A stretch of DNA of 64,000 bases, taken from the NCBI GenBank assembly GCA_950106755.1, contig OX467082.1, forward strand, positions 49,184,588-49,248,587, read 5' to 3'. This DNA is from Climacium dendroides. Taxonomy: Eukaryota; Streptophyta; Bryopsida; Hypnales; Climaciaceae. A model generated the notes under the pieces. That model saw only the letters and a program-made list of their open reading frames with translations, was not told where the DNA came from and did not search any database. Shown in pieces: positions 10,405 to 64,000 of this stretch. Made by a program: the position numbers and the translations under genes. The first letter of the stretch is position 1; each line of letters starts with the position of its first letter.

Positions 10405-10547
10405 ACTATTGAAAAAAAAAAAAAAATTATCGATAGAGTAGAAGATTGGAAAAGGTAGTTCAGGACAGTAAGTTAGGGCTCAGTCATTCGCCAGATTGTA
10501 GATTAAGTGAATGAGGGTCCAGTAAACGAAAATCTGATTCTAACTTC

Positions 10548-12151
10548 ATGAGTAGGCCTGAAAGAAGAAATACAACTTTACGTCGGACGGAACGTCAAGA
10601 GGAAGAAAATAGGCGAATAGTGGTATACGGGTTACCAGCGTCACAGTTTGCAGAGGATCTGGTTATAATTCCTCTTAGGCCGGAAGTACTTCCGGAACGT
10701 TCCCAAAGCCCTAAAGCGGTTGAGGAACTAGAAGCGGAACTTGTTACCTCTGAAGAGGAACGATTCTCTGACGAACCAGATACCATGGTGACCACCACGC
10801 GTCTCCGTTACAGTAGGTTCCGGGGAGACGGTAGTAAGGATGTAGATGATTGGATGGGGGAATTTGAAGCTACTATTGTAGCTAATCAAGAAGATGCCGC
10901 TTCTAGACAGAGAATTTTTCAGGGACTACTAAAAGGTGAAGCCCTTAGATGGTATCAGGATGTTCCGGAAGATACCCGGAACAACTGGGACCGTCTGACG
11001 GAACTCTTCCTGCGGACCTTTAGAGAAGTAGGAGGAGAAGCTAGAGCTTTGGGGAGACTTAGTAAAGTCTCCATAAGACCCAATGAGTCGGTCCGAAAAT
11101 ATGGTCAGAGGGTGAAAGACCTGATCAAAAAACTAACCACGGACGTAGCTCCGAGTATACAAGTGGAATGGTATGTGGCAGGTTTTCCGGAGGAGATGGG
11201 TTTTCAGATCCGACAATCCCGACCTGCAATGCTAAGAGAAGCCATGGAGTCAGCCCAAAATTATGAGAACTCAACTCAATCGCTACGACGATCCATTAAG
11301 AAGAGCGAGAAAAGAGAAAAAGGGAAGAGCAAAAAGTACGAGAAGAAGATGAAGCAAAGAGGGAGGTATTCGGATTCCGAAACCTCGAGTTCCGGAACCG
11401 GATCGGACGAGTCATCCGACAGCGCCGACAGTTCGGATAGTGAGGCAGAGACTTTTAGCAACAGACGAGTGGCGCGAGGAAAAAACGAGAAGGTTAACAG
11501 AAGAACCGTCAAGGTGAAGGTGGAGGAGGACAATTCCAAGAAACTTATGAAGAGCATCCAAGAATCGCTAGAGGCAATCAAGGTCAACCTAGCTGATAAT
11601 CGGATGCCTCGATGGATTGTACCGACTTCCCGAGCTAATGTATGGTGCGCAAGGTGTGGAAGACCCGATCATTATGCAAGCAAATGCCCCCAGGGACATC
11701 AGAAGCAGATCCATTTTGTGGACGAAGAAGGAGTGTACTACACACTTCCGGAACCGGAAGGGGGTGAAGATCCGGTGAATCCAGTATTCCAGATCCAAAC
11801 TGGATATGGAAGAGGGAAAGCACCTCAACAATTGATTCGCACCAATTTGCATACGCATCCACCGACTGGATCTAGTCAAGGTACTTATTCTACTTCTAGA
11901 TTCCCACCCGGATGTTGTTTCGTGTGTGGAAGTCCTCAACATTATGCCAATAGCTGTCCCCATAAAGGGTAGGGGCAAGGGGCCCCACTAGCTTTACCAT
12001 GCCAGAATTGTTTAAAATATGGACATGGAATGAATGAGTGTCCCAGACCGCAACAGATCCGTACTATTTACAAACATGTAGAAGTCCCACCTCGTGACCA
12101 AACCGGACTCAATTACGGATCCACTACCGGAATTGAGAATACGGAAAAATG
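10548..12151 (+). pseudogene. gag: gag polyprotein of Element A
   Basis: An open frame of 474 residues runs from 10548 to 11972. The capsid region (about residues 85-245) has the RYSRFRGDG start, the WYQDVPE block and the NESVRKYGQRVKDL block of Ty3/Gypsy Retrotrans_gag domains. A Lys/Ser-rich acidic-basic linker follows, then two CCHC zinc knuckles (CARCGRPDHYASKC and CFVCGSPQHYANSC). The frame continues after a TAG at 11970 with a third knuckle (CQNCLKYGHGMNEC). A second stop, TGA near 12149, precedes pol. With those two stops read through, gag and pol share one frame, so the family probably makes one Gag-Pol polyprotein. The product would package and bind element RNA in virus-like particles. 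Confidence 0.92.
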
Positions 12152-25437: not shown

Positions 25438-25842
25438 ATGGCTTCCATTAGAATAGACGGTTATGATATACCTGTAGTGTTCCCAATTGTTCATGGTGGT
25501 CACGCTAGAGTTCCTAGTCACCTTCTGCACGTCCGTTTTAGGTTCGTAGAAACGTCCATCTACGTTGAGGAGGAGAAAATGTCCAAAACTAGCGAAGTGA
25601 TTCAATCTGTTCCGGTTGTGAGGTCTGACGATGATGGGACGCATTGTTGGTATCTTGGTCTAGGAAATTACAAAGCATACGGACTTCCACTCTCCATGCT
25701 AGGTGCGTCAACAGAAATCTAAAGTTGACAGTCAGATAATTCTACGTGAATATGCCGTCACTACTCACACTATGTCACCTAGTCCGTCGACAAATGTTCC
25801 AAGTGTGCTACATATGCCTTCAAAGCTTCTTGTTGTGAAAGA
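25438..25842 (+). pseudogene. MULE-type transposase gene, 5' part
   Basis: The frame begins MASIRIDGYDIPVVFPIV at 25438 after a pyrimidine tract and AAG. It encodes a compact N-terminal domain of about 90 residues. A frame change near 25715 leads into a linker (SPSTNVPSVLHMPSKLLVVK) that runs to 25842. There the 18 kb transposon interrupts it. The coding frame and sense resume precisely at 43943 with an acidic linker (EEKLDPIIELSSESEGES), so the two pieces were one exon. The N-terminal domain is unassigned; in MULE proteins this position often holds a PB1-like or DUF domain, which is inference. Confidence 0.75.
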
Positions 25843-25869
25843 AAGGCCTTATTCGTTAAATTGAGACAA
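25843..25869 (+). repeat. Left terminal inverted repeat of the 18 kb transposon
   Basis: 27 bp starting AAGGCCTTATTCG; one mismatch to the right end. A further TTTTGAGACTTGG follows within 20 bp, giving repeated TGAGAC words that may serve as transposase contacts. Confidence 0.88.
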
Positions 25870-26353
25870 AATGGTCATTTTGAGACTTGGAAAATTGAAA
25901 ACCAAAGCCCCATTTCACGAAGAGTTGTTGAATTCAATGATAAATAGAACTGTTTTCTCAACATCAATAAGAAGTTGCATCTAAAGGCATAGAAGTGGTG
26001 ATTCAATATGATGACAATCAATTTAATAATGCGATGGTTCTAAAGGTGCTTTTAAGGAAGTTAATCAAGCGAATGAGTTCACTCCAAGTTAAGAAGCTTT
26101 GAGGAACCATGTCATTTGCAATAGACTAGATCATTCATAGTGAAAACAAACGAATCATTGAGTTTATTTATGATTTTTCCAAATCCATGTGAAAACAATA
26201 GAGTTCTTCATAGTTACATGTCGTAGCACATCCTCTGTGTTCTAGTTTCTGTATATTTGCTAATCTATTTATAGTAACTACAATATGTCCGTACATATTC
26301 AATTTCTTTGAGTACTTACAATTCAATTATCATTCTACTCATGGTAAAAATTA

Positions 26354-26580
26354 CACTATAAGAAAACCTTGTTTTAGGTGACATTCAAAAAAACAGCTGA
26401 CGTCAAAGGGAACGAATTTTAGGTGACGTTGAAAAAAACAACCTGTATTTTTCATGTCAATAATGATGTCCAATGGAACATTAATGGAGATAATTGTTGA
26501 CAGAAAAACATAGGTTGTTTTCTTCAACGTCACCTAAAATCCGTTCCCTTAGACATCGAAAATTTTGGTTTCTTCTAGTG
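26354..26580. mobile_element. CACTA-type MITE inside the 18 kb transposon
   Basis: This 227 bp element starts CACTATAAGAAAACC and ends GGTTTCTTCTAGTG, flanked on both sides by TTA. The arms (TTTTAGGTGACGTTGAA against its reverse) pair imperfectly. It is less symmetrical than the MITE at 5142. Terminal CACTA and a 3 bp TSD place it in EnSpm/CACTA. It entered the 18 kb element after that element was in place or in an ancestor copy. Confidence 0.85.
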
Positions 26581-26640
26581 TTAAGAAGCTACAAAATGGA
26601 TGGATTCTAAAACATGTCTGATTTATGTGCACATTTTCTC

Positions 26641-27555
26641 TCACATTTTTTCGGGGAGGTCTGATCCATCAATCTTTGTTGCTTCCATTGCTTGCAACTT
26701 TGCAAGCCCTCGTAGGATATCCTCGCGCCTGGAAGGATAATGCGACCGACCTCGACTATCAAAAGTATCCCAATCATTCAAACTCTGCGTAGCCCTAGCT
26801 TTCCGCTTTGGCCTTCGGATGCTTTCGGGAACCTCCAAAGCAGAATGAGATTTTGGACCTTTGAGGGGCGGCCTTGGTAGAACTGGTTTAGGATTTAGGT
26901 CTAGAACTACAGTCTTGGTAGATTTTGAGCCCATACTTTGTCTTTGCTCTCTGACAATTCTTTGTCGAAGAAGACTATCCGATGACGGCGTTCGCCTTGC
27001 TCCCCAAGACTTCAAATGAGCTGATGGATTACCATCAAACGAAGTTTTACAAAACGAAACAGCCTTCCCGTGAAGTAAAATCTCCTTATCTCCCTTTAGA
27101 AGTGGATCTGATTCCACTCCAACAATGGGGATAGATGCTAACGGAGTTGAAGTTTGAACGTCATCCTCAAGTCGAGGATATCTTACAACGTTGTCGACCG
27201 AGAGCTTTAGTTTCCGACTTGTGGGAGTGCCCATGCACGAAGTTGGTGATGCGGATCGTCCGTGGCTCGAGGACGTGCACTTCAACGGCGACGGAGAACA
27301 GATAGGAGTCCTTCCGGGTCCACGACTCGAGGGGTTGTCCACAACGCCGTCCTCAATATCCCCCTTTGAATAGTCAATGGCAGCCGACGCGGCATCCGCG
27401 GCAGAGCGCAACATGTAGGGCTTAGAGAAGGGAGCCGTTTCACAGCTTCCACCATTGGATTTGGAGTCACTCGATAGTGCCTTTTCCGATCCAGAGAGGA
27501 GGCTCCTTGTGATTTTTTGCTTCACAAGTGATCCCAAAAAGCGAACACCTTCGAC
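26641..27555 (-). CDS. Unknown basic, Ser/Pro-rich protein (transposon cargo)
   Basis: A single open exon of about 300 codons follows an acceptor (TTTAGTGTAG) at 27556 and reads VEGVRFLGSLVKQK at its start. It ends at a TGA at 26641. The protein is Ser/Pro-rich with scattered RTPICSPSPLK-type sites and basic patches (RRPKRKARA). It finishes in a short helical segment (REDILRGLAKLQAMEATK). No known domain is visible, and no in-frame stop. It may be the 3' exon of the phosphatase gene just upstream, although that frame ends at 27768. One copy of the GANTC-centred palindrome lies in its coding sequence at 27163-27182. Confidence 0.5.
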   Translation of the reverse strand, partial: VEGVRFLGSLVKQKITRSLLSGSEKALSSDSKSNGGSCETAPFSKPYMLRSAADAASAAIDYSKGDIEDGVVDNPSSRGPGRTPICSPSPLKCTSSSHGRSASPTSCMGTPTSRKLKLSVDNVVRYPRLEDDVQTSTPLASIPIVGVESDPLLKGDKEILLHGKAVSFCKTSFDGNPSAHLKSWGARRTPSSDSLLRQRIVREQRQSMGSKSTKTVVLDLNPKPVLPRPPLKGPKSHSALEVPESIRRPKRKARATQSLNDWDTFDSRGRSHYPSRREDILRGLAKLQAMEATKIDGSDLPEKM

Positions 27556-27767
27556 CTACACTAAATAATTATTAATAAGCTCAATTCTTGCCTTCCGCAT
27601 CAACCAAATAGCACTTCGAGGGCATACAAATTCTTAAACATTGAGCCAAAAGATGATTTTTTAAAAAAAGGTTTCATATATTAATTACAACGAATGGTCA
27701 TTTACTTGAAATACATAGTACAAAATGCCTGGACCCCTGCATGCTCAATCACACGGAAGTGTAAACT

Positions 27768-28691
27768 CTAAGTCGAAGTGTAAACTCTACGGCGACGCGT
27801 CTCTACACGTAGACCTACTGCGGAAAGCTCGTATGAGCAATTCATGACCTTCGCGGACTCTTTCATGCCCTCAATGATATCTTGGAGGGCATGGTCATCG
27901 GGACCGGGCGGGTCTAACCCAATCCGATTCTCATTGACGTATTGTTGCATCCCGTCGTCCGAACAGTTGGAATGCAACCTCTGGAGCCAAAGGAGCAACT
28001 CGCCCATGAGCACGTCGTCCCTCCGCTTGGAATGACTTCAAGTCTCGAGGAACAAGGCATTCCCATTATCATTGCAAATACTCTTTTCAGGAGAATCATC
28101 AATGAGAAGGGTATTTTGATCGTTAAAGAACGGGCCCTGACTATGAACGGTGAACAGACCATCCTCAATAATCTTCAAGCAGAACACTTTGTTTCTGCGA
28201 TGGAAGAACTTTCCAGGAGCGACTTCTACCTTCGAACACTGCTCCTGCCCTAGTATATCGAAGGGGGCCCTGCAATTGCTGAACAGGTGCCTAGCAATCG
28301 GTTCTGCATTATGCTTCATCATGGTGGACCACACAATGATCCTATGTGCAATTTCCGACACTTGCCGCAAGAATTCCCTGACATTCTGTCTAGGGAATAC
28401 TGCTTTCGATCCGATGACAGTCGGGTACCGATGGCTAAGAACGTTGTCTTCAAGCCTATAAGACTTCAATTTATCAGCAAACGCCCTCAGCATGCTTTGG
28501 CAAAGCACGCCGTTCAGGTCTAAGACAATATTCAGCCATTTTCTCCGCGGCGGAGGCATCAAAGGACGCAAGCTCGTTCGTAAGACCTCTCTTTGCCCCT
28601 CCGGTGCTACTTGATCAAAGCAAAACAAATGAGAATTGGAGTTACCTGAATAAATGCAGAAGTGGGAGAGCCAGCAAGCGGACAGATGCAT
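27768..28691 (-). pseudogene. FCP1/SCP-like HAD phosphatase (transposon cargo)
   Basis: The minus strand encodes an FCP1-homology (NIF) HAD domain. Motif I is IVLDLNGVL, with the nucleophile Asp present and the second Asp replaced by Asn, a form seen in plant FCP-like proteins. Motif II is the RIIVWSTMMKHN block, and the late acidic motif is TLLIDDSPEK. HAD phosphatases of this type remove phosphate from Ser/Thr, classically on the RNA polymerase II C-terminal domain. One in-frame TGA at about 28036 separates 217 residues from a matching tail (RRDDVLMGELLLWLQRL). The second exon starts near 28614 after GATCAAG; 28691 is the first Met upstream and may be a false start. The gene sits between the methyltransferase-like gene and the unknown basic protein, all on the same strand. 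Confidence 0.7.
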
Positions 28692-29103
28692 TTCATTCCA
28701 CTAATTGACTGGGGACTTCCGCGAGGGAGTGCTTTCATTGGTATCGGACGTTGCACATTTCTATGTGTATTGAGTTGAGCATGAACACATGGACAGATCA
28801 GTTCAATTAGACGTCATTGTATACAATCTATTGAAACGCTTATACTTTATTTAAGGTAGATTATAAAATACATGTCAAAATTTCGTTTAAGTATGGGTCG
28901 TCAAGACTGCGCATTGAGGCCTACGCTATACTATTCTACACGCATGTCTCCCACGGACACAGGTTCTGTCCGCGCAATTCATTCAAAAATAGGCAGGCCA
29001 TCCTATCAAGCATCATGAATTTGAATAAGAGTCGGCAGTTCATGCGCACCGCATTCCAAACATCTACATAATAACAAACGACTATCAGATTCTCCACCTT
29101 GGA

Positions 29104-32100
29104 TTAATACTCGGGATTTGAGGAGTTTACCTGCGAAGATCCACCCGCCTGGATGGCATCGTCTTCCTCCTCAGCGGGCTTAGAAGAAGGACCTTTCTCT
29201 TGAAGATCTTCTTCGCCCTCGCCGTAGTCCACCTTCTCCTCCTCTTCATCAAAGGAGGGAGAATGGCGTTCCACAACAACCTCTGCCGACTCATGCACAG
29301 AGGTCTTTTCAATCGAAACTGCCGGGACCTCTGCAACACGATCAGCATCATCGACACGAGGATGATATCCTGCATCGTGCACAACAATTTGTGGCTCCGG
29401 AACAACAACTTCAAATGCTGAAGGGATTGGCGAAGATATCCTTGGCACTTGCGAAGTTGATGTGCATACAACGACATCTTCCGGTGTCACTGCGAGACCA
29501 CCGTCATTATCATTGACACGAGGATGAGGGAGCCCGACAACCAGTTCCTGCACGATTGGTGATGTAGAGACAGGTAGTGGAGGATGTGAAGGCCCAGCCT
29601 GGGATACAACCAAGGGATTTCCAAGTTGTTGACTAGACTGGGATGACAGGAGCTGCTTGAGTTGCTCAAACTGGGCCGATAGATCCGAGATTTGGGCTTG
29701 CGACTTTATCTGCAATTCCATTATTTTTGCATTCGCATCGGCAAACTCTTTGTCCATGGCTGCCCTTGCTGCTATTCGTTCAATTCTTCTGGTCCTCTTC
29801 TCCTCTTCTAGCCTCCAATAGTCCTTCTCCACCTTGATGATGGAACCCATGGGCAAGAGCAGTGGCTTCATTTCCTTCTATTTGGGAGCGCCATCATCGT
29901 TTTCTTCATCGTCATCAGATTCTCGAGGATGATCTGCAACATCATCATCACTGCCCAAGTCAATGAAGGTTGGCAAGCTAGAAACATGGGCATCAACTAT
30001 GAGTTCATCATCCGCCCCAACATTCTCCTCCGCCCTTGCTCGGCCAACATCCCCAACATTTTCAGTCCTCCTTGCGTCGTCCTCCATCATCTTGTCAAAT
30101 TCCGTATCTGATTCAATATCCTCGACGATATGACGCGCAATAGGATCCACACCCGCGAGTGCCTATGATTCATTACAAGGAGGTTGGGCAGGTTCATTCT
30201 TGTCAGACACACCAAACACGTCTACCAATCCAAGAGAGGAAGGTTGGATGATCAAATTCTCAGAGGTGACGGGATCAGTAGTTGGATCCAGAGTTGGCAT
30301 CGACACCAAGGATAACCACGCACGCATTTGGAACGTATTTGTTCCGAACTCGTTTATTCTGTCCAATCCCGGATCGGAGCTAACGAGGTCTTCAATCTGC
30401 ACTCGATTTTTTGTCACGGAGGTCCCAACAGATGATTCCAGTGTCATGGGAGGCGACGAAGGCGAGTCAGACAACACCATGATGGGTCCACAACGAGGGG
30501 GTTGGACATACGTGAGCGAGTACGGCGAGTTTGAATGCATGAAGTCATTCTTGTCGAGTTTATCTGCAAAGTATGATATACTTCTATATCCCTTTGCATC
30601 GTGCTTGTCGACGAAACCATAGAAAAATGCCCCAAACATCTGAATCAAGAGAAGAGGATATCAGTGAGTCATAGGGGAGCAACGAGAGGTTATCGTCGTG
30701 TCGAGGATAACAAGAGCATCCTACATCCTCTGTTTTGTATGAAGAGCAAAGAGAAGAATATGATAGGATAACAGACTATACAAAATAGCTAATTATCGTT
30801 GAGTCGAGGGTAACTGTGACAATTGCTCAATAGATTTCATGAACTACACTAGCCTAACAAATCCACTCCGCAAATTGACCATTATCCTCGAGTCAATGAT
30901 AGTAAATGACAATGTTAACGTGACATACCTTTGCAGCAAGCATGAGCTTGACTCCGGTATAAATTCCAAGCACGTTCTCGCCAGGGACTGCAAATGCTTG
31001 AAGGATCTCGAAATAGAACTCCATTCGGAGTTCAGTGGGGTGAATTCTCCACTTGCATTCTGTGTTCCTGTGCGCATCCTTGTAATAAGGACAAGTTCCC
31101 GAAGGCACTCGATACTCTGGCTTCATGAAATCCCGTACAGATGAAGCAAATTCATTCTCTTTCTTGAAGAGGAAGAGAAGAGGCACATCTGGAGCGGCGC
31201 CTCGGTTCGTCACGTTGTTGAGCATTTCCGCTTTGTATGGGATGTACTTGGACTTCAATATGTCATACTCTGCCATGTTCAAGTCAGCGAAGCTAACAGC
31301 CACACTCACATCCTCACTGTCACGTAATATGAAAAGCCAAACGTTGGCTGCACTCATACTTGGCTCCAGCTTGTCGTCCAAGAAGTCCAGAAATGGGTCT
31401 ATGGCTGCCTCGATTGCTCAGGGTTTTGATCGAGGGACTTCTCTAGTGTCAACCACTGCAAGATTCACCTCTCGACAGCAGTAAGTGAATCGGTTAGTGG
31501 TGACAAGCGCCTTCGCCGAGACATCCATTCCACGTATCTCCACTCCACCGCTCAATTCAGGAAGACTGTATTTCAGCTTCATGAAGCAATTGTACATGTG
31601 CAGAACGTCTGGGAATTCTTTTCCTAGGTCCGACACCCGCTTTAGCCATGCATCATTCCGTAAACGCCTCTTGAAGTAGTCGGCCTTGATATGTGAAAGG
31701 AGGAAATCCCATGTAGCAGATGAGAATGGATGGCGAGACTTCCAAGACCTCCACCGGTCATCAATTATGTCCTTCCGGCTGTCTAGAAGCTTTAAGTCAG
31801 GTTTGATGCTCATCAAGCCCTGAATCACAATTTTTTTCCTTTTCCTTCGCTCAGTCCAGTCCGTACTTGTCATATTGTCCACTGCTAACACCCTCATTTT
31901 TGAAACTGAAAGCTTGGGATATGGTGCAGCCCGACCAGGAGTTATCCCAAGCAGATGCTGTGCCTGTTTTCCGAAATCCTGGTCAGTGAAATGGCCAGCA
32001 TGTTTAAAGAATTCCCTTCGTAATCTAGCAAGCTTCAACTTGTACCCTTTATTTTCCTTATACATTTTAACGGTAGCTGGGTCAATGAGCTCGCCTTCAC

Positions 32101-33296
32101 CATGCTTTGTCAGAAAGAGTTTCCAATGATCCCACAACTCGTCCGAGAGGGTTATTATCTAGATTTCGTTCTTGAGGTCCGACGGCCCCCTTATTATTGC
32201 ACCGTCTCCTTTAGGATTAATATTCTGGAAATGATCTACAACTGCATCGGTAAAGCTCTGCAAAAGAGGTGATGGAGAAATAAGGGAAGAGAGAAAGAAT
32301 GTTTAAATAAAAACATTGAATCCATGATGAAATTGAGTTATAATTATAATTCCAAATGCTGACCAATGAATACAAGACTGAAAGAATTCAATGTAGTCAT
32401 GTAGCAGGTATCGTCGAGTCGACGATGATGGTATATTCTCGCTCACCTTGTAGTTCAGTGGACTGTACACAGCCTTGTTCTGTCGCACCACATGATCGGT
32501 CACTTCAAGAGTGGGACGCTTGCAAGCAATCCAGATGTTTCTACAGCTGATTATCTGATTCCCCCACGTTGGCTGCGCATGATCTAGGTGGTGTAGGGCT
32601 AGGATTAATGCAATCCTGAGTTTGAGTCTCGGGTAGGGGTTGACTAGGTTGTGTCCCCCTACTTCTTCCTCCTCCGCTTCCAGATGACATGGTCCACTTT
32701 CCAATCGATTCGCGTTGTTGAATATTACGTATTTGACCTCCTACAGTCGGAGGAGCTTGAACGTTTGACAAAGCGTACCTATCCAATGTCTGGAAGATCA
32801 GGCTCAGCTTGGTTGCAGTAGCTTTGGCGGTCCCGGTTTTCCATGGAAGGTATCCACTATCTATAAACTGTTGATTGAGGGACTCCATTTCAGAGCCCTC
32901 CAATAATGTCATGAGGTTCTCAAGGTCAAACTCTGCCTAATTTGAGTTGACATTCAGCACTATTGAGTGACAATGTTTTCCAGCTTTTCCACCGTCATCT
33001 ACCTCACGTAGAACGATCACAACATAGTTGTTGTGGTGAGCATCTATGAATATCACCTTTTCATTCAAATTCCACACAAGGTAACCCGGCTGCCCGGAGA
33101 CTTTGTACCGGAGAAAGACGTAGTCTTTCCATTGGTTCACACCAAAACTCCAGCTTGCAATATGCGATTTAAGCTGGAATAGTTTTCCGTAGCTATCCTC
33201 CATTTCCGAAATGAAGGGTCCATCTTCGACAGGATTGACGAAGGGTTCTAGGTGGTGCTTTGTCACTGAATAGTCTTATGCGTCCTCCGAATCCAT
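29104..33296 (-). pseudogene. Second amino-methyltransferase-like gene (transposon cargo)
   Basis: The start at 33296 follows an acceptor-like AG. A first domain at 33.3-32.5 kb (KHHLEPFVNPVEDGP, then GYLVWNLNEKVIFIDAHHN) is unassigned. A large exon at 32258-30930 holds a helical domain. It then has motif IV-like EVNLAVVDTREVP, a long insert, and at its end motif I-like PGENVLGIYTGVKLMLAAK. The next exon continues FGAFFYGFVDKHDAKGY. This is the beta-class order, and the spacing FxxIL..PGE.VL..G resembles N4/N6 DNA methyltransferases. As in the 15.7-20 kb gene, the DPPY box is missing and a D-x-x-E stands there. The C-terminus (29871-29500) is a Lys/Arg coiled coil. Stops that look like former Gln or Arg codons occur at 33283, 32938, 32160, 31418, 30163 and 29878. 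A frame change lies near 32560. Confidence 0.6.
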
Positions 33297-33412
33297 TCTC
33301 AGGTCCTGTCAACAGATGTGCATGATTGGCATTTAGTTTCAGGTATCTACACTCAATTTCCAAAGGACGTCCTATTTATGTGTTGTAGTAATAATCGTTG
33401 AATTGGACATAG

Positions 33413-34129
33413 CATCGTCGACTCGACGATAACTAGTGTATGGGGAATCTTAGCACTAGCTGTGAATTTCAATGGTCATTTCATGTGAATGGCACATTGA
33501 GGACGTACGGGGCTACTAGAGAATGTTGTTTTTCTGTTCTGTGTGTTGTATCAATGGTTCGATGATACAATCGTTTTTTTATGTTTTTTTCTTTTTTGAT
33601 GAATAATGGTTCCTTTTGGAAAATAATGTTCTTTACCTCAATTTTAGTTCAGTTTTTTTCTGGCGACGATTTGATGATTGTCTTCTATAAATGATTGTAT
33701 TCTTCCTAGTGGGTAACATCCATTACTTCCGAGTTATCCTCGACTCGAGGATAATCAGGGATACTTCACAGGTACCTATGATATTGGGATAGCGTTGACG
33801 TATCCTATGAAGGATTCATTGCTTCCCTCTAGAAGCATCAATTACTTCCAAGTTATCCTCAAGTCGAGGATAACCAGGGATACTTCACAGGTACCTATGA
33901 TGTCGTGGTAGCGTTCACGTATCTCAGGTTATCTTCCATTCGAGTTCAATTTTTTTTTTTAGAGACGAGTTGATGATCGTCTTCTATGAACGATTGTTTG
34001 CTTCCCTCTAGAGAACATCAATTACTTCCAAGTTATCCTCGAGTCGAGGATAACCAGGGACACTTTACAGGTACCTATGAAGTCTGGATAGCGGTGAAGT
34101 ATTCTAGGTTATCCTCGACTCGAGGATAA
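33413..34129. repeat. Cluster of GANTC-centred palindromes upstream of the methyltransferase-like gene
   Basis: Five good copies of TATCSTYGAGTCRASGATA lie at 33413, 33734, 33853, 34033 and 34109, with a partial copy at about 33928. Those at 33734 and 34109 are perfect 21 bp palindromes apart from the central base. Three sit in units sharing the flanks ATTACTTCCAAG and CAGGGATACTTCACAGG, so part of the cluster arose by tandem duplication of 120-180 bp units. The cluster lies 0.1-0.8 kb upstream of the gene beginning at 33296, where a promoter should be. Confidence 0.85.
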
Positions 34130-37100
34130 CCCTGACTTTTCCTGTGAACTTGAGTGGGCCATTGTGTGGAAACCCTAATTGCCGCATCTAAACCCTAAAT
34201 GCTTGCATGATGGAATGAATTAGCTTTTTGTTTCTGTACTTCAGTGGACAAACCTGGGAGTTGGAAGGCTCTTCCTGTCAACTTTAAACTTCAGATGCTC
34301 AACGTACCCTTCAAATTCTGAAAATGCCATGTACAGTGCAATTTCATTAGAGAAATGTAAGGTGCACGACATGGAGATGATGTGAATATGCAGAATTCAA
34401 GTGGCAAACCGTGCAAGACACTACGAACTACAACCTAGAATCCAAAACGGGTACTAAAGGTCTTACACTGCTTACAGAGGTATCCTCACATCTCTATAAA
34501 TTTGAATTCAAATTAAAACAAGTGAAACTACAAAATTGAACACCCTCAAGTCCTCAACCACAATAGGAAGGATTCACAATTTGAATTTACCTGTACTAGA
34601 AGGAGAGATTGGGAGCAGCTATCGCAAACTCCTGGCTTGACACTGCTTCAAGAATAGGTGATGGCGCTTCTCAATTTCAACAATCTTGTGCCCCTCCCTT
34701 CCAGACGGTGGCACCAAAACCCTGAACATGATCAGTCCGCAACAATCAATAAAGCAAACAATCGGCCTAAACAACAAGCGTTCACAAACATAGAAGCAGA
34801 AGCCTACAAAATCATCAGCGCTCATAATTACAGCGCGTTGGAAAACAATCGCTCCCAAATACAGACCTAAACCATTCTACCGGGACCAGTGTGGCACACA
34901 GAAGCTAGAGCCCACAACAGCATGAGCGCTTAGAATAACAAACAGAAGCGCTGGAAAAACAATCGCTGCGAAACAAAAGCAGAAGCCCGCAAAAACAAGC
35001 CCGCACAAAAATATAAGCGCTCACAAGTAGTAGCCTTCAAAAACAAGCGTACACAGATTGATAAACATTAATCCTTGAACTTGTGGAAGCACTCGGTCAC
35101 TCACTATACACCCTAAATCAACTTGTAGGATGGAGTTCACAAGTCACGACATCAACCTCATACCTTGCAAAGCACCGGAAAACCAGATTGAAATCACAAA
35201 ATGGATTGTTGCTGCTCCCAATTGACCTCGCAACGGATTGTTGTTGCTCCCAATTCAACTCGCAACGGATTGTTGCTGCTCCCAATTGAGCTCGCGGTTC
35301 GTACCAGCTCTCAATAGAACTCGCGGAATGAAGCCAAGCCTAAACTTTGAAACTCGTGGAATGGAGCTCAGGTTCCTCACCCTAAACCCTCAATGCACTT
35401 GCGAAATGGAGCTCACACAACTCACACATCCCTTGCAAACCTCCATGCACTGATTGAAAACGCAATCGTTCACAATTTCAGCAACCCTAAAACGAGGACG
35501 TTGCACACAATTCACGCAAACCGAAGTCGAGGGACGCACCGCAGAAGTCGCAGTATTTGGAAACCTGCGCCGCCCAAGGAGGTCGACGACGACTCCACGA
35601 ACCTCACGCTCGACATACCCGAACGTAGTCCTGCATTCCCGAACCTCGCGCTCGGCATACCCGAACGTAGTCCTGCATTCCTGAACCTCCTACAGTAGTA
35701 CCCAAACCTCCCCTTACAACACCCGAACTTGCCCATGATTTATCTAAGGTAGAAGGTCCTGAAAGCATTGACCTAAAGGAAATTAGGCCATTTGGAGATC
35801 TTGGAGGACTTTAATATATTTTGCCCTTTTTTGTAGTGGAAGAAAATTTAAAGATTTATTTATTTCATGTAAGGAAGAACAACCCATTACAGGCCAAATG
35901 GGGCGTTTGTCCTTAGTTCATTACTGAAATTTTTTACTTTTTTTCTCACATAAAGACAAGCAATAGAAATGGCGAGAGCAATTGAAAATATATTTTTTCA
36001 ACAAACTAAGTGTGAATTTCTTATGAATTTTTGAAGTGCTCAACCCATCATGGCCTAAAAGACCCTAAACCCTCCATAACCAACAAAAACTATACCCATA
36101 ATACTCATCTTACTCACGTAATGCAGTCAAAATATTTTCTAACATGGAAGGTTTGGAAAAGTCACTTTTCACAGTGAATTAACCCTAAAATGCTGGAAGT
36201 TCCTATTGCAGTCCCTAATCACCCCATTCCAGTTAGCTAAGACATTGATTGCAGTCAGAATCTAAAAATCTGGAAAAAAACTGTAATGGGCTCGTTCCTA
36301 GGGGTCCGTAATGGGTAAAAGGTCCATAATGGGTTGTTCTACCTTATATGCTTGCCAAAAAAATAGCAGATGCAACCAATGAACGAATGAAATGACAAGC
36401 CACTCTAGACAAGGCGGATTTTTCCTAAATTAAACATTTATTAAAAATTTATCATTCGTATTTATTTGGTCTACATGGGTCGAATGCTAAAAATGTGCTC
36501 TCTGTACCGAGAGGTACTTAGTGTGAATAATACTCATGCATTTCTAAACCTAAAATTCGTTTTTATAGCTAAATTTTTTTCATTTCCAGTTTTTTTTTCA
36601 TTTTCTTTAATATTTCATTTGCTATTCATCATCTTATTTCAATCATTTGGACATTTTTAAGCCATTTTGTAGACCTTACCAAATTTTGGTTCTTAATGTG
36701 AGTAAAGTCGATCATGATAGTGAACCATCTCACTTGTTCAATAGCCTAAAATCATCCACATGGGATGTTAGTTCCTCATCACAAAAAGTTAATTCCATTT
36801 CAACACCCATGTGCAGTGCTTTAGAGCCTTTTGTAGGGGTGGTTCTTAATGCCTGAACCATTTTAGAGACTCCCCCTATAAGCCTGGCCCAGAAGTTAAG
36901 TAGCCACTACAATGGATTATTGCATCCAAGATGGCCATCATAAAATTTTAAACGGTGATTTTAAGAACTAAAACACTTATAAAATTACTATTAATATAGA
37001 ATTTAGGAAGTTATAAATGAATTTAACCACTTAGAAGAGACCATTCTATTTTGCGTAGTACACTATTTCGACTACCATTCTATATTTGTAAATGACTACA

Positions 37101-37660
37101 CCACTTTGGAATTGAAATGTTTCATTCTAAAAACAAAATCAATTTTAGTAGTATATTCTGGACTTATTATTTAAGATGCTAGTACGCTTAAGTCTTTAGT
37201 TCTTGTTAATTAGCCCCTAACCATGTTATGAATTAGGTGGGTATTAATAGAACTATGGATCTACTACTACTTTAGGTTGCATCTCATAACTCACAAGTCT
37301 TCAAATTTTGCAATTAATTTTGATTTTTGTTGATGTGGTCCACTTTTGAATCATACCCAAATAAATGATTAAGACATATTAAGTCACGTTAAGCACTGAA
37401 CCAAAAATATTATCAATGAGGAGGAGCTCATTTTTACGCTATGCTTACATGATTCATAATGACCTATTTATTTTTGGTGTTTTTGGTTATTATTCTGGTT
37501 ATTATATATTTAAGAAAAGGAGAAATTTAGAAGTGAAATATCTTATTTACACCACATTTTTTGGGTTTAAATGCCCACAACGTAGAACATACCCCTAATT
37601 ATATTATATTATCCAAAGCATGAACCTTTATCTTTAACCCAAGACTCCAGCTCTTCCCTA
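34130..37660. other. Non-coding stretch
   Basis: I see no supportable gene. From 34.7 to 35.5 kb the sequence repeats loose words around AGCGCTCACAA and CAACGGATTGTTGCTGCTCCCAATT, which reads like a degraded repeat. At 35.6-35.7 kb a 40 bp unit (CCGAACGTAGTCCTGCATTCC) is duplicated. From 35.8 kb on it is AT-rich. Confidence 0.6.
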
Positions 37661-38265
37661 AAAAAATGGCAAATGAATTGAGCAATACTATCTCCCCATT
37701 TCTTTTCATCGCTATGGTATTCCAACACACTTACATAAAGAAAATAATGGGAGAGTAATTGAGCAACATTATCTCCCCATTTTTCTTCATTCCTTTGGTA
37801 TTTCATCACACGTATATCACAAAATGGCAGATACATTGAGGAACACTATTTTCCCATTTTTTCATTGCTACATTATTCCACCACACTTGCATGAAGAAAT
37901 GGGAGAGTAATTGAGCAATACTATCTCCCCATCTTTTTCCATTCCTCAAGTATTCCACCACACATATGTGAATAAATGGCAAATAAATTGAGCATCAATA
38001 TTTCCTCTTTGTTTCTCATTGCTTTGTTATTCCACCACCCTTGCATGAAAAAATGGGAGAATAATTGACAGACGTGCATTTCAAGTACTATACCAAACGT
38101 GCATGTATAGATAGCAAATAAATTCAACAATACTATTTTTTTTTTCTTCATTGCTACGTTATTCCACCAAACCTACATGAAGAAATAAAAGAGCCTCTCC
38201 ATTTTTGATCATCATTGCAACATTCTCCCATATTTGCATGAAGAAATGACAGAAGCATACCCCTT
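37660..38265. repeat. About 83 bp minisatellite
   Basis: About seven diverged tandem units share ATTGAGCAATACTATCTCCCC, CATTGCTA and TATTCCACCACACTTGCATG. Alternate units differ (AAATGGCAAAT against AATGGGAGAGT), hinting at a two-unit higher-order repeat of about 165 bp. It is non-coding. Confidence 0.75.
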
Positions 38266-38289
38266 GAACCCTAAAACCTTCAAAATATT

Positions 38290-38345
38290 GAAAACCCATT
38301 TGTCATACCCTAAACCCTAAATCCTAAACCCTAAACCCTGACCCT
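38290..38345. repeat. Short telomere-like AAACCCT tract
   Basis: Four to five imperfect CCCTAAA units in a row, followed by scattered ones up to 38390. The plant-type telomere heptamer fits a plant nuclear genome. The tract is far too short and degenerate to be a telomere. A similar scrap is at about 52460-52500. Confidence 0.7.
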
Positions 38346-38433
38346 CTAAAAATTCATAGCCTCAAAACCCTGAATCCTAGAACCCAAAAATGGACTTGAC
38401 AGAAAATAAGCCAACAAAAAAGGCCTAAAAATA

Positions 38434-38707
38434 CTGAGCAATCGATGGGCACACGACCCGAGAAGTCAACCTAGTAGAACTACAGCAAAGAATTCTGTGT
38501 AGGGACAAGCTTTTTTTGGAAAATGCATTGGTGGAGCCACATCTTTCTTGTAGAAAGCTGGCAAAAAATACTAAGCAATCGATGGGCACAGGATCCCAGA
38601 AGTCAACCTACCGGAACTATAGCAGACAATTACGTGTATGGACAAGTTTTTTTTAGAAAATGCATTGGTGGAGGCACATCTTTCTTGTAGAAAGCTGGCA
38701 AAAGCGC
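38434..38707. repeat. 137 bp tandem duplication
   Basis: Two units of 137 bp start at 38434 and 38571 (CAATCGATGGGCACA, then TCTTTCTTGTAGAAAGCTGGC). They are about 90% alike. A small inverted stem (TTTCTTGTAGAAAG) ends each unit. Confidence 0.85.
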
Positions 38708-39239
38708 CTTCAAGCGAATGACTGAACACCCAAGAATCAAGGAGTTTGCAGGAAATTTGAAATTTGGAATTGCCCGCTAAAATGTTCCCACTTTTTCCAA
38801 CTTTTTGCCCATCTCCTGCCACGTGCATGTTCACTTGACAGAACTTGCCTTCCTCCACAAACACGCTGAGGTGATTCTTTTGTTGTTGCTATTCTCTTGC
38901 GCTTCAAGTGTATCCGCATAGCACATTCACAAGTTCAGGTCTGCAATGATTTTTCTTCTTGTTTGTGAGTTCTTAGAAAGAAGGTGTACATTTGTATTTA
39001 AATTAGTTGCCATTAACCTCGTTTGCTAGTGAGTTTGTTTTGCACATATTGATGTCAAGAAGTATGTGGTGATAGTCGTTGAAGGTCCATGTTTGTGACA
39101 TCTCAATGTATGAAGACGTTATTTTTCTCGAGTAAGCCTGGAGACTATAGGAAATTGGTTACTCGTGCTGTTAGTGAAGAGAGTTGTAATACAACGTTGT
39201 TTGCAGTGCCCATTTTTTGCGGCATGAATTTTGGAGCAT

Positions 39240-40420
39240 TTCATGGATAATTCCATTACCTCAAAACTGTCATTGAGGGTACTTATCGTTGAGTCGACGA
39301 TAACAATGACCTCTTTGACTTCTAGTTATCGTCGAGTCGATGATAACGTAGTCAGATTTTTTCAATTGGCATTCCTAGCAAATGTGTAGCTACTTCAATT
39401 TCTTCTAATTTCAAAGGAGAATGTGCATCGGGTTGAATTATTTGTTCTTCACATCCAACGAATCATGAAAGGAATTTCATTGAGGGTAGTTATTGTTGAG
39501 TCAATGATAACTCTGCGTTCTTTGGCTTCTGATTATCGTCGAGTCGATGATAAAGTAGTCGAATTTTTGCAGTCGGCGTTCTTAGCAAATGTGTAGCTAT
39601 TTTAATTTCTTATGATCTCAAAGGAGAATGTGCATTGGCTTGAATTACTTCTTCTTCACATCCAACGAATCATAAAAGGAGTTTCCTTGTTGGTACATAT
39701 CATTGAGTCAACGATAACTCTAAGTTTTTTGACCTCCGGATATCGTTGAGTCAATAAACCGTAGACGAATATTTGCAATTAGCATTCTCAGCGAATGTGT
39801 AGCTACCTCAATTTCTTATGATTGCAAAGAAGAATTTACATTGGCTTGAATTATTTCTTTGTCACATCCAACGAATCATAAAAGGAGTTTCCTTGTTGGT
39901 ACATATCATTGAGTCAACGATAACTCTAAGTTTTTTGACCTCCGGATATCGTTGAGTCAATAAACCGTAGACGAATATTTGCAATTAGCATTCTCAGCGA
40001 ATGTGTAGCTACCTCAATTTCTTATGATTGCAAAGAAGAATTTACATTGGCTTGAATTATTTCTTTATCACATCCAACGAATCAAGAAAAAAGTTTCATT
40101 GAGGGTGGTTATCGTTGAGTCAACGATAACTCTGAGTTACTTGACTTCCTGTTGTCGAGTCGATGATAACGTAGTTGAATTTTTGAATTTTTGCAATTAG
40201 CATTCTCAGCAAATTTGTAGCTACTTCAATTTCTTCTGATTTCAAAGGAGAATGTGCATCGGGTTGAATTATTTCTTCGTCACATCCAACAAATCATGAA
40301 ACGAGTTTCATTGAGGGTACTTATCGTTGGGTCGTTGATAACTCTGAGTTTTTTGACCTGTGAATATCGTTGAACCAATGATAATGTCAACTATAAAAAC
40401 AGTATTTGCAACTTTGCATT
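39240..40420. repeat. About 205 bp tandem array carrying paired GANTC palindromes, upstream of the transposase
   Basis: Six units with a spacing of 201-212 bp start at about 39283, 39490, 39693, 39903, 40108 and 40320. Each carries two copies of the TATCSTYGAGTCRASGATA-type palindrome about 40 bp apart, then AATGTGTAGCTACYTCAATT and CACATCCAACRAATCA. Units 3 and 4 are virtually identical, so one duplication is recent. The last unit decays into 40420. The array ends about 220 bp before the first recognised transposase exon. Confidence 0.9.
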
Positions 40421-40639
40421 GAAAAGTACTTACTTAGAGGAAGATGAATGACTGAATCATAGTACAAATCATTGTATCATCGATTCAACAATGTTGTATT
40501 TGTAGGAAATTATGGACACTTGATGCTATTGGTAAATATAGAGTATGTTTAGTTTCTAGTATACTATAAGTTGTTGTAGTAGAATATCTTTATCTTTGAC
40601 TCAACAATGAATCTAAGGAGTGATCTTCGTGCTTGCAGA

Positions 40640-43492
40640 ATGGATTTCCTTGGGTTTGATGAGTTTGCAAATCCAGTTCCCCCATTTCCACCTGATGTTT
40701 AGGTGTGCGAAGGAATTCCTCGTGCAAAATGGGTCTCACGGTTCGTCACTCTTCGAAACGAAGATGGGGTGGACCTTGCAAGGGGGGTTTGCCAGAACGT
40801 TGACCCAGAGTTAATCATTGACTAGGATGGAAAGCCTCTCGGCGATGACCGGGTTGCCATTCAAATTGCTGAGTCTCTGAACGAGGAACTCTTCTCATCT
40901 GGGAATGTTTGGTCGCTTCGTTCTTGGGACATCAAGAGAGTTTTTTTAGATGACAATGTGAGCTTATATGACCATGACCAGACCCATGTATATAACGCAG
41001 CCATGAACCCCTCAAGCAGAAGAATTCGTAAGGGGGTTCGATCATATGAAACAACTCGTGAAAGGATTGATCCTTAGATTCCTCCCAAGAAAGAACTTCT
41101 CCTCTCTATGGAATCGATCACATCAGTGTCCACAAAATCATGTTGTGAGAAAAATTGTGTTCAACCTTTTCCGCGTGGGCAAATCCAAGCGATAAGGACT
41201 GAACTATATTCAGGTGAGGACTTCAAGGCGCGTAGCAAGACACTTTTGGAGGTGCACAGGCAAATCCATAAAGACAGTGGTGGCAAAGAGTGGATTACCT
41301 TGAAAGGCAGAGAAGTGTGCCCCACTGCGTGGTGGATCATTCATGGGATTGCAAGAGCTACGTTCTATAGGTACAAAGAGAAGGCTAGAATTGGGAAGCA
41401 AACTCAAGTGCATGGAAATGTGGGATCCAAAAAACCCCGCATTCATACTCTTCAAGCTATTGCCATGCTTCGAACTCTTATTGAGTCTGATGCCGATCGA
41501 ATGCCACACAAAACAAGGACAATAGAGTCTAGAGAGAAAGTTGCAGCGATGGTTCTATCCTCCTCTTTTTGTTGGAGTGACCAATTGCCTAAAATCAATG
41601 AGTTCAATGCAGAGTTCAATTTGCAGCCGATTTCTTCCAATGGCTTGAGCAACATTCGCCGTCAGAATTTCCCTGAATTTGCTGCCAAGGCTCGTGGGGA
41701 TAGTTTTGCTAGGTGTGGCTTGTGCGATGAGTATAAGCAATTGAGGAGCGCCTGTTGGAAATCAGAGTCGTTTGATAAGTATACCAACATTTTGAATACC
41801 CATGTTGCAGGTCAGAGGGCTCATAGAGAGTACTACTATGGAAATCGGGAATTTTCCATGAGATGCCCGGATAAAATGTTGTGCATCATTCATGATAAAA
41901 TGGATCACTCAAAAACGGCTTCTCCACACTTTTCTCACAAGAACAAATCGACGGAATCCTTCATGAAAATGCCTGTTGTTGTTACAGGTATGATTGCTCA
42001 TGGTCATGGTGATGTACGATATGCACACTATGGTGTGGGCATTTTTCCAACAGATTCGAATCATACCATTGGATCCATTGCAAGGTTGTTGCGGGATTTG
42101 GAAGGGCTGCCTAAGAATTCATCAAGGGCGTTATTTTCTATTGAGGGGGGGCAATTCACATTGACAAAGGCGCTTTTAAATGGAGCAGAAAATTGCTTGG
42201 ACTCCCTCCTTCCACCTCCAGAACAGCCACTTCCAGCTCAACCTCTCCCACCAATATTAATATTGCAATTGGACAATGCGTCAAGGGACAACAAGAATCG
42301 ATATGTTTTTGCGTTCTGCTCTCTACTTGTATACAAAGGCATTTTTCGTGAGGTATACATCAACTTCCTTATTGTGGGACACACTCACGAAGACATTGAT
42401 GCTCTTTTTGGTCGATGGAGCTCAAGATTGAAGACGAATGACTACCCAACACTTCCAAAGCTCATGAAGTCCTTTATGGATTGTGAAACGCACCCTGTGA
42501 TTCCTCATCTCATTGAGGAGCTCCCTGATTTCAAGAAATTTGTGGAGGGTTATTTGGGCATTGGTGGCGATGAATTAGGGGGGCATTCAAAAAGTCAACA
42601 ATTCAAGTTTTTTATGGGTTCTTTAGGATGGCCTTTGATGGAGTATAAGAATATGTGTACTGACCCGAAGTGGTTGCCAGAGCACGGCAATGGGATTAGA
42701 ATGTGGTCAAAGACTGAGGATGGTCTTCCTAAAATACCAAGTGGTAGCCCTAAACCTTTGGCTCCAGTTCCAATGAAAGCTCTTGAAGACATAAAGAAAG
42801 GTTTGAATGGCTATGTTAGGCATTGGAACAAAATGGCAAACAATGATCATAGTGGAGAGTACAGGCGGAAGAATGGTCCACTAGAAGAGTATTGGAAAGG
42901 CATCAGAGCTGCTCTAGATGCACCTCTTCAGGTGCGGGAGGCATTACTTGATGGATTTTGGCCAGCTTCAAGGATTGCCAATGATGAAACAGATCAAATG
43001 CAAAGAAATGGCACATTGCGTGAAGAAAATGTGGAGGATGCCAACTTTGTTGGATGTAAGCGTGATCGTCCACGTTCTTCGTTTCGTGTTGCTCGTGATA
43101 CACACGCAGGTTCTTTTGTTGCAGTGCGTCTTGCTGATGGTGATCCAAAACCATTTTGGCTTACTAGGGCTATTACGGCTCCGAGCCCCGATCTAGGGCA
43201 TATGCATATGATCAAAATCCAATATTGGAGGCCTACTTCGGATCGGCACATTAATATGGAGACATATGAAGGTTGGGACACCAAACAAGGGAATGTGTGG
43301 CGTGAAGATAGCGTTATACCTTCAACATGGTCAAGCACAGATTGTATCATGACAGTTTGGAAGCCACGGTTTCGTGACGGAACTAAAAATCCAAAGGTGA
43401 CGGTTCCAAGCTTGCAAATTCAAATCATCAAGGCATCAGTGGCAGCCTTCACGACTGATGCAAATATCGATGGTTCTATGGTTGAAGAATGA
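40640..43492 (+). pseudogene. DUF7869-type putative transposase
   Basis: The frame starts at ATGGATTTCC (40640), just after CTTGCAG, and runs 951 codons to 43492. In-frame TAGs at 40700, 40823 and 41075 interrupt the first 150 codons. From 41108 there are 794 uninterrupted residues. The N-terminal half has a predicted helix-turn-helix-like region and a CGLCDEYKQLR...C Cys cluster. The centre holds the DUF7869 core: an acidic region with MDHSK, then LQLDNASRDNKNRYVFAF and VGHTHEDIDALFGRW. The spaced acidic residues and the fold family suggest a DDE/RNase H-like transposase. That is inference; no activity is known to me for this family. The C-terminal part (WKPRFRDGTKNPKV) is probably a DNA- or chromatin-binding domain of unknown type. 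It is the best-preserved gene of the 18 kb element and the likely mobility gene. Confidence 0.75.
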
Positions 43493-43911
43493 CTTATAGT
43501 TCATAATTATATTAGTCAAATGTTGTTTTGGTAGTTCAATTAGAGCGCTCAATGTAATTATTAACAAGTTTTGAAATGTTTACATTCATATATGTATTGG
43601 TTACTTTTATTATGGTAGTGTGCCTATGTATGAGAAATAGATCTCTATTAATAGTAAATTTATTTATTACTATTGTCTCTCCAAGTATTGCATTCTAAAT
43701 GTTTTTGGTGAATTTTTGGTAATTTATATGTTTAATTTCATGTTAAACTTTGCTATCCTCCATGAATAGATTACTTCTTTGACATTTGGAAGTTTTGATT
43801 TGTGAGAAAAATCATATTTGACGTTTCTAGGTCTCAATTTAATGAAGAGTCTCAAATTAATGAACCCTGTTTCCACCTTACATGTATGAAAAATTAAAAT
43901 GAGACTGCAAC

Positions 43912-43938
43912 TTGTCTCATTTTAACGAATAAGGCCTT
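43912..43938 (-). repeat. Right terminal inverted repeat of the 18 kb transposon
   Basis: Read on the minus strand it begins AAGGCCTTATTCGTTAAA and matches the left end over 27 bp with one mismatch. Subterminal GTCTCA words continue inward to about 43810. The 43493-43911 interval is AT-rich and otherwise empty. Confidence 0.88.
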
Positions 43939-43942
43939 AAGA

Positions 43943-62331: not shown

Positions 62332-64000
62332 TTAGGAATCCGACTCTTGCGCGTACGTCTTGACCCAGGATTTATTCACCCTTGTGTCCATCCAAACCCC
62401 TTGAAGATCTTCCAGTTGAATGGATCCATTAGAGAATAACTGTCGCACTCTATATGGGCCCATCCATCTGGTGTGAAGTTTTCTTGGAAAAATCCGGTAA
62501 CGGCTATCATATAATAGAACTAACTCCCCTTCCTTGATCCCGTGATTGGTTGGTAATTTCTTGTCATGATCTGCCTTTCTTTTTTCCTGTATTCTCTTCG
62601 TGTGATCGAGGGCCACCAATCTTGCCTCCTCCAAATCTTCGATAGCCATCAACCGGATGTCTGGATCGCTGGTCCGGATAGCGTTCCGGGTCGACATCAT
62701 TCGGTGTGATTCCACCTCTAACTCAATCCCATGGGTGGTCTCCTGTCCAAATACAAGAAAGAATGGACTTCTCCCAGTGGTAGTCTTCTGTGAGGTGTTG
62801 TACGCATGGACTGCCGATAGAAGTTTCAAATCCCAATCCGTCTTGTGCTTAGAGATGGTTTTATTCAAAACCTTTTCTACTACTCCATTGGCTCGTTCCG
62901 TCAAACCGTTGGCCCTTGGGTTATAAGGAGTGGTCTTCCGGTGGGTGATCAGATATCTCTTGGTAATATTCTGAATGGTATCATTCAGGAAATGGAGTCC
63001 TCGATCACTGACTAACTCTAGTGGGTGTCCAAACCTCATCAGAATTTCCGTGAACAAGAACGATGCTGCAGTCTGGGTGGAACTATTTCGAGTAGCCCGT
63101 GCTTCCACCCATTTGGTGGCATAATCTGTCGCCAAGATGATATACTTCTTTCTTCTAGCCGTAACTGGAGAAATGGGACCTATGAAATCTATTCCCCATT
63201 TCTCAAATGGGGCAATAGGCATGATTGGAACGAGTGGCCAATGGTTCCGGAAGGAAGGAGCCCCTATTCGTTGACATTGGTCACAGCTCCCCACATACTT
63301 CTTGATGTCCCGGATCAGATATGGCCACCAATATCCGGCTGCTCGGATCCGGTTCACGGTGGTGATAGCTGCGAAATGTCCCCCAGAGGGTCCGAAATGC
63401 AAGGCTCGCATTATCTTCTTCTGGTCCTTTGTTTCCACGCATCGCCTTAGCTGATCATCTGCTCCCATTTTGAATAAGGTTCCCTTAATCAGTGAGTAAA
63501 GGCCAACCTTATGGTAGAACATGATTTTCTCCTCCCTGTTTAATCCTTCCGGGTATCTTCCGTCTACAAGGAAATCTATGATGTCCTGGTAATCCGATCG
63601 AGTTCCTTCTTGTAGGTGGAACACGAATTCTTCTGGAATTTCTGGAAAGTCATCCGGGAATTCTGTGGAAATGTCTTCAAGTGAAGTCGGTCCCCTAATT
63701 CTAGAGAGGTAGTCCGCATTTGCATTTGACTTTCCGGATTTCACTTTTACTTCATAATTGAATTCTTAGAGCAATAACACCCATCTTACTATTCTTCCGG
63801 AAAGGTCAGGTTTGTTTACCAAATACTTGAGTGAATCATGATCCGTGTGGAATATTACTCGATACCCAAGCAGGTAATGTCGGAACTTTTTACATGCGTA
63901 GACCACTGCCAACGCCTCCCGCTCCGTGGTGGTGTACTTCCTTTCCGCCAAGCTCATTTGTTTGCTGGAGTAGTAAATGGGGCATTCTCTCTGGTGACTG
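62332..64000 (-). pseudogene. pol: pol of Element B: RNase H end and integrase
   Basis: Reading leftward from the window edge, the frame has the end of RT/RNase H (PIYYSSKQMSLAERKYTTTE, HTDHDSLKYL), a TAA at 63766 (probably a former Gln before EFNYEVK) and the linker SNANADYLSR. Integrase follows in one open run. Its zinc domain is H-x-H-x-C-x-C (HFGPSGGH, then CDQCQR). Its catalytic DDE core has GIDFIGP, LVSDRG and LTERANG in order. A chromatin-facing C-terminus with GPYRVRQLF ends at 62332. The order RT-RNase H-integrase marks Ty3/Gypsy. The reverse transcriptase and gag lie to the right, outside the window. Confidence 0.93.

Follow-up and report, generated by a model that had tools for sequence, protein, structure and literature searches.

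Several groups of large DNA transposons have been described that are close to the element reported here. As outlined in the available part of PMC10741241, Sola elements encode a DDD transposase, generate 4-bp target-site duplications (TSDs), carry terminal inverted repeats (TIRs) of 11-1124 bp and mostly measure 2-9 kb, with some over 15 kb. The Sola1 group has been reported from Physcomitrella (excerpts of PMC9033089 and PMC10741241, citing Bao et al. 2009). In the brown alga Ectocarpus, the accessible sections of PMC12477816 describe Sola1-1_Ec32, a giant Sola-1 transposon of 21.5 kb, and give 1,989 Sola-1 copies, 2 of them intact, making up 0.17% of the genome. ParB-methyltransferase accessory proteins are proposed there to bind and modify their own transposon. 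The CMCT clade, which includes Lanisha, is characterized in the part of PMC12730594 at hand by mostly CA..TG termini, by C(2)C and H(3-4)H between the second D and the last acid, and by TSDs of 2-5 bp.

The window analyzed here is the whole 64,000-nt stretch C1:49184588-49248587 from the moss Climacium dendroides, whose genome assembly comprises 412.6 Mb in 123 contigs. It holds one decayed copy from an abundant family of giant elements. The features of this copy are listed below, with the evidence for each in brackets.

25839..25842, no strand: left target-site duplication AAGA (flank joining)
25843..25869, plus strand: left 27-bp TIR (arm comparison, genome matches)
25843..43938, no strand: complete element, 18,096 bp (TIRs and AAGA; family data)
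26644..27555, minus strand: frame after the phosphatase, probably its C-terminal part or the next gene, with no Pfam match (counterpart in a second copy and a second family)
27161..27181, no strand: weak palindrome with 5 mismatches, inside the 26644-27555 frame (two other elements have one at the equivalent position)
27771..28700, minus strand: HAD/NIF (dullard-like) phosphatase gene, in two frames here (Pfam, TIGR02251)
29107..30162, minus strand: acidic coiled-coil-like gene, two frames (counterparts in the second copy and second family)
29507..29527, no strand: weak palindrome with 5 mismatches, inside the acidic gene (two other elements have its counterpart)
30166..32158, minus strand: methyltransferase-like exons 31421-32158 and 30896-31417, then exon 30166-30660 (identity by motif only)
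30690..30902, no strand: three palindromes between two methyltransferase-like exons, a probable intron (site scan)
32306..33275, minus strand: remains of the ParB-like exon (comparison with the second copy, fold)
32408..32428, no strand: one palindrome close to the 3' end of the ParB-like exon (site scan)
33412..34129, no strand: cluster of 5 palindromes upstream of the ParB-like gene (site scan)
39283..40610, no strand: cluster of 10 palindromes upstream of the transposase gene (site scan)
39348..40384, no strand: 206-bp tandem repeats bearing many of the transposase-side palindromes (repeat analysis)
40637..43492, plus strand: DUF7869 transposase gene region, open from 41078 with an in-frame stop just before (Pfam, genome matches, predicted fold)
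43912..43938, minus strand: right 27-bp TIR (arm comparison, locus comparison)
43939..43942, no strand: right target-site duplication AAGA (flank joining)

The two TIR arms (25843-25869 and 43912-43938) are 27 nt long and 96% complementary, and the element terminates in AAGGCC..GGCCTT. With up to 3 mismatches allowed, the TIR was matched twice in the window and never in 100 shuffles. The presence of AAGA at both ends gives the element size of 18,096 bp. The repeats, the duplication, the size and the view of the locus as a single giant DNA transposon with both ends placed had been put forward in a sequence-only reading of the window, and all of them are borne out. That reading had also claimed the exact restoration of a MULE reading frame. 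Removal of the element with one AAGA does leave a 127-aa open frame spanning the junction; past a single stop codon, a 445-aa frame continues in register. The MULE label did not hold up: the 445-aa frame gave no meaningful Pfam match, its sole row being an unrelated phage family at E 0.2.

The existence of other copies with the same ends had been named beforehand as a test of the element. The element passed it: at 3 or fewer mismatches, a 25-mer taken from the TIR has 681 forward and 685 reverse matches in the assembly (1,366 in all; reversed control 0). The family explains over a thousand TIR ends in 412.6 Mb. From the 1,366 matches, which count ends and not genome-wide pairs, several hundred elements may be estimated. 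The search with the DUF7869 protein gave 56 scored matches among 2,289 candidates, namely the window, 51 at 92-95% and 4 at 73-74%. A left-end search gave 40 scored matches of 523 candidates, and a correctly oriented left end lies within 60 kb of 24 of the 56 DUF7869 matches. Besides the window, 21 end pairs from these 24 matches were tested; C6:1419846, with its gene cut short, was left out, and at C37:29896487 the right TIR was absent from the 451 bases examined. The 4-bp direct repeats that the earlier reading had suggested seeking at other copies were identical in 20 of the 21 pairs, window not counted (12/13 and 8/8 in two batches), and the discordant pair is flanked by GTAC and TGTT. At four TIR-pair loci from the 100 places listed, the flanks agreed by eye in all four (ATAC, GTAT, GTTT, AGTA), two of these being the same flanks inverted (L001/L002 and L003/L004). 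This one copy pair with shared inverted flanks is what would be left behind if the apparent transposon were made of large segmental duplications or assembly repeats. For the family as a whole, such an origin has next to no probability and is refuted: no two of 30 copies are more than 50% alike in the 40 bp outside the right TIR, and the duplications are exact in 20 of 21 pairs.

Fifteen of the 21 elements measure 18.7-22.9 kb, one 27.3 kb and five 37-49 kb. The 30 DUF7869 gene copies have a median identity of 98.05%, and for 19 of 29 the closest sequence is the same copy; judged by these sequence identities, this is the pattern of a burst.

The presence of a DUF7869 gene, noted earlier, is confirmed by the Pfam match to PF25273 in the window element (E 4.8e-46). 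Among 73 sequences of at least 600 aa, query included, D273, D399 and D439 are kept in 72 and D441 in all 73, and these acids sit at the expected places of an RNase H fold in the predicted model. On structural grounds, the DUF7869 protein is predicted to be a DDE/D transposase with D273, D399 and D439 or D441 as its acids. The best structural Z of 8.1 is near the level that unrelated models reach according to the tool's own note, and Foldseek returned no row at E 0.001 or better for the transposase model or for the ParB-like model. The 50 VIA rows for the transposase model include Argonaute/PIWI chains, a MutYX row and PWWP rows (C-terminus). Argonaute/PIWI proteins have an RNase H-like fold. 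The PDB sequence search with the transposase gave chance rows only, and DUF7869 was not mentioned by name in the literature searched. The window copy and many others carry stops in DUF7869, so many copies would need movement in trans; this would suit a DUF7869 gene that is a mere passenger, with the true transposase elsewhere or acting in trans. Such a passenger is very improbable and was rejected. The TIR lies at a fixed place, about 0.45-0.58 kb past the DUF7869 stop, in 30 of 30 loci (the best-scoring ones, the window's included), which bears out the claimed link of DUF7869 to mobility. The protein has a predicted transposase fold, and no transposase Pfam domain was found in the other frames scanned (8 in the window, 9 in the second copy). 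With DUF7869 read as the transposase of giant elements, PF25273 gains a probable role.

The best reading, with a probability of roughly 0.8, makes the window element a decayed cut-and-paste DNA transposon of giant size (about 19 kb is common) that most likely belongs to Sola1 within the Sola superfamily. It is filed there because size, TSD, gene order and domains match closely, on the basis of traits and precedent, with Sola1 transposases compared by description. The 4-bp TSD was found in 20 of 21 end pairs and in the window, the conserved acids form a DDD set on the predicted RNase H fold, and the TIR of 27 bp and the size of 18.1 kb fall within the Sola ranges. The earlier reading could not place the element in any superfamily. 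As far as the available descriptions go, the 4-bp TSD, DDD core, large size and opposite-strand ParB-methyltransferase gene probably match Sola1. It is improbable, in comparison, that this giant DDE/D transposon comes from a different superfamily, named or unnamed (KDZ, EnSpm/CMCT-Lanisha or a new lineage), and gained its ParB-methyltransferase gene by exchange between transposons. Of Maumus, McDaniel and Carey, two work on moss. Lanisha was named by these three, according to the source text at hand, and accessory genes are described, in the portion available, as moving between transposon superfamilies in fungi; both points favor such an origin. Against it stand the termini, which are AAGGCC..GGCCTT and not CA..TG, and the region between the second and third acids, where no C(2)C / H(3-4)H was seen by eye in residues 399-441 of P0001 (one C, H435 and H437); CMCT was rejected on these two grounds. 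KDZ was rejected on the TSD, which has 4 bp here and not the 8 bp given for Zisupton. Additionally, Physcomitrella is cited for Sola1 in the excerpts named above. Among the matches listed for giant moss transposons, novel Physcomitrella superfamilies and Ceratodon, nothing was found on this family; the word Sola1 was found, among the matches listed for moss-related literature, in PMC9033089 alone, and the available part of PMC7466625 on Physcomitrium transposons holds no Sola.

The strand opposite to the transposase carries genes that the earlier reading had labeled as cargo. They were compared with a second copy and with two further families, e3 (C1:7412427-7430766, proteins 32-72% identical piecewise) and c9 (42-73%). 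The phosphatase claim is upheld by a NIF/HAD Pfam match in the window (E 8.8e-08), and in another copy the gene is one 310-aa frame (PF03031, E 3.6e-11); the match to TIGR02251 (2e-06) is below that model's cut-off. It is present in the window, the second copy and the second family (54%), and the piece of the third family, which ends short of its left end, has a match of just 67 residues at 25%. The methyltransferase-like identity is putative and comes from motifs read by eye. Two conserved stretches, ELRMEFYLxILQxFAxPGENxxGIxxGxKFMLAAKV and DLRxxP, were compared with motif I and the DPPY-type motif of N4C/N6A DNA methyltransferases. Pfam, NCBIfam and PDB-sequence searches gave these exons no support, the sole methyltransferase profile row being Methyltransf_20 (E 0.1, 1 of 28 members). 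The counterpart of exon 30896-31417 has 150 scored matches in the genome, and 4 of 21 perfect-TIR pairs lack a scored methyltransferase-like match. A ParB-fold exon, overlooked in the earlier reading, precedes the methyltransferase-like gene. Its model is predicted to have the ParB N-terminal (ParB / sulfiredoxin-like) fold, with ParB matches in the PDB. The ParB Pfam profile matched 0 of 43 members, and Pfam, NCBIfam and PDB-sequence searches gave nothing usable for this exon. Compared with the second copy, about 0.55 kb covering most of the ParB fold is missing here, and a scored ParB-like gene is lacking upstream of 11 of the 56 DUF7869 matches, including the one in the window. The opposite-strand genes are conserved machinery and not mere cargo: even families with only about 50% identity have their ParB-like and methyltransferase-like exons at the same positions.

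The earlier reading had also overlooked a 21-bp palindrome, which occurs 13 times in the window, always inside the element, and is found in the second copy, e3 and c9 as well. Sites within 5 mismatches of TTATCGTCGASTCGACGATAA number 21 in the window, 28 in the second copy, 27 in e3 and 19 in c9, which is incomplete; dinucleotide shuffles gave means of 0-0.05, and reversed sequences gave 0, 0, 1 and 0. The consensus was drawn from these same elements, and the counts inside them are therefore not an independent test. Such a test is provided by the later-fetched families and by the zero counts outside: no palindrome was found in 45.9 kb of window flanks, in 27.7 kb beyond 29 other right ends, or in 12 kb outside 4 further elements. 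Within those 29 copies, 239 sites fall in the 4.5 kb before the right end. When the window element was aligned with e3 by blastn, the coding parts and the ends matched and nothing else did; with c9, one 28-bp stretch was added, itself a palindrome. By hand comparison of coordinates, sites lie at matching places in the window, second copy and e3 in the post-phosphatase frame and the acidic gene. The places shared with c9 as well fall between the methyltransferase-like exons, where the ParB-like exon ends, and in the clusters upstream of the ParB-like gene and the transposase.

The palindromes can be read in two ways. One is a self-contained ParB/parS-like system, in which the ParB-fold and methyltransferase-like protein would load at 19-28 palindromes, kept at corresponding places despite lost non-coding similarity, and would coat, bridge or epigenetically mark 20-40 kb of DNA for transposition or escape from silencing. 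This proposal is tentative, with a chance just short of even. It is also quite possible, though with somewhat under an even chance, that the palindromes are not ParB sites and serve as promoter or enhancer elements for two divergent transcription units. GATA-type half sites (TTATC/GATAA) are an example of a motif of this kind. The two big clusters sit upstream of the ParB-like and transposase genes, and paired change between the arms exceeded shuffles at just 2 of 10 half-site positions (position 6, P 0.03; position 8, P below 0.0005; palindromes inside the tandem repeats are not independent in this count), both of which suit promoter elements. The dyad symmetry over 10 bp per arm argues against them, as do sites whose positions correspond across three families, in a probable intron and within or after coding exons.

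The element moves as a unit with fixed ends and 4-bp duplications, its DUF7869 gene is locked to one end, and the opposite-strand genes are linked to it. In the mechanism proposed here, the DUF7869 protein would bind the 27-bp TIRs, excise the element and insert it at staggered 4-bp targets. The ParB-like/methyltransferase-like protein would be the element's own accessory protein, which may recognize or load at the 21-bp palindromes and coat, bridge or mark the element DNA. Synapsis of the ends, or escape from silencing, could become easier in this way for so long an element. As a guess, the phosphatase might act on host chromatin or transcription proteins. The palindromes are candidate DNA sites for the ParB-methyltransferase accessory proteins of the Ectocarpus proposal, as far as it is set out in the available part of PMC12477816. 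With such sites at hand, the bind-and-modify proposal becomes directly testable, perhaps in moss.

Bacterial ParB-parS systems are partition systems. Common to them and to this element is a mobile DNA that encodes a ParB-fold protein beside repeated palindromes, which is known here from sequence and a predicted fold. Bacterial ParB has a GERR-type motif in its CTP-motif region, whereas the moss protein reads NGQHS. No ParA was noticed in passing. KDZ giants (PMC12477816 and PMC12730594, in the available descriptions) are similar in size and accessory genes, and differ in the 8-bp TSDs of Zisupton. Lanisha and CMCT (PMC12730594, available part) share a DDE/D element and a TSD range of 2-5 bp; the moss element shows neither their CA..TG termini nor their C(2)C / H(3-4)H motifs. 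Physcomitrella Sola1, compared by description, shares the moss host and the Sola traits of 4-bp TSD, DDD, size and TIR range, and the accessible parts of PMC9033089 and PMC10741241 mention no DUF7869, ParB-like gene or palindromes in it. The closest counterpart is Sola1-1_Ec32, which shares giant size, an opposite-strand gene with ParB-like and DNA methyltransferase parts and, by the account in PMC10741241, a superfamily with 4-bp TSDs. Copy numbers are not comparable, as ends and scored matches were counted here. In the moss element, separate exons encode the ParB-like and the methyltransferase-like part, and the methyltransferase-like part has altered motifs and matches no profile. Set against the available description of Sola1-1_Ec32, the phosphatase, the coiled-coil-like gene and the repeated palindrome are seen in the moss element only. 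What had appeared to be cargo is conserved machinery, and the element is most probably a new Sola1 variant with more genes and a repeated palindrome.

Five of the 21 copies with tested end pairs are 37–49 kb long, compared with the usual 19–23 kb, and their 4-bp flanks still match. The extra length of these oversized elements may perhaps be explained by nested insertions. Two of them are listed below, together with the smaller features that were recorded in and around the window element and in a related element of the second family.

C35:31566816-31605109, oversized element
C2:50665390-50702539, oversized element
Window 10515-11972 and 62332-63765, gag and integrase reading frames of retrotransposon type, one stretch on each side of the window element
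Window 26399-26557, MITE-like inverted repeat (arms of 55 nt, spacer of 49 nt) within the left part of the window element
L059:8736-8764 and L060:3199-3244 (locus positions), short telomere-like CCCTAAA repeats within a second-family element

The same flanks, in inverted orientation, are common to two other genomic copies, whose end pairs are L001/L002 and L003/L004 (contig C1, 7.4 Mb and 23.3 Mb). This arrangement reflects either the segmental duplication of an insertion or a feature of the assembly.

The ParB-like exon, which lies on the opposite strand of the element, is matched at 38% by P0154, a protein labelled as coming from an uncultured cyanobacterium; its source is probably eukaryotic DNA inside a metagenome bin.
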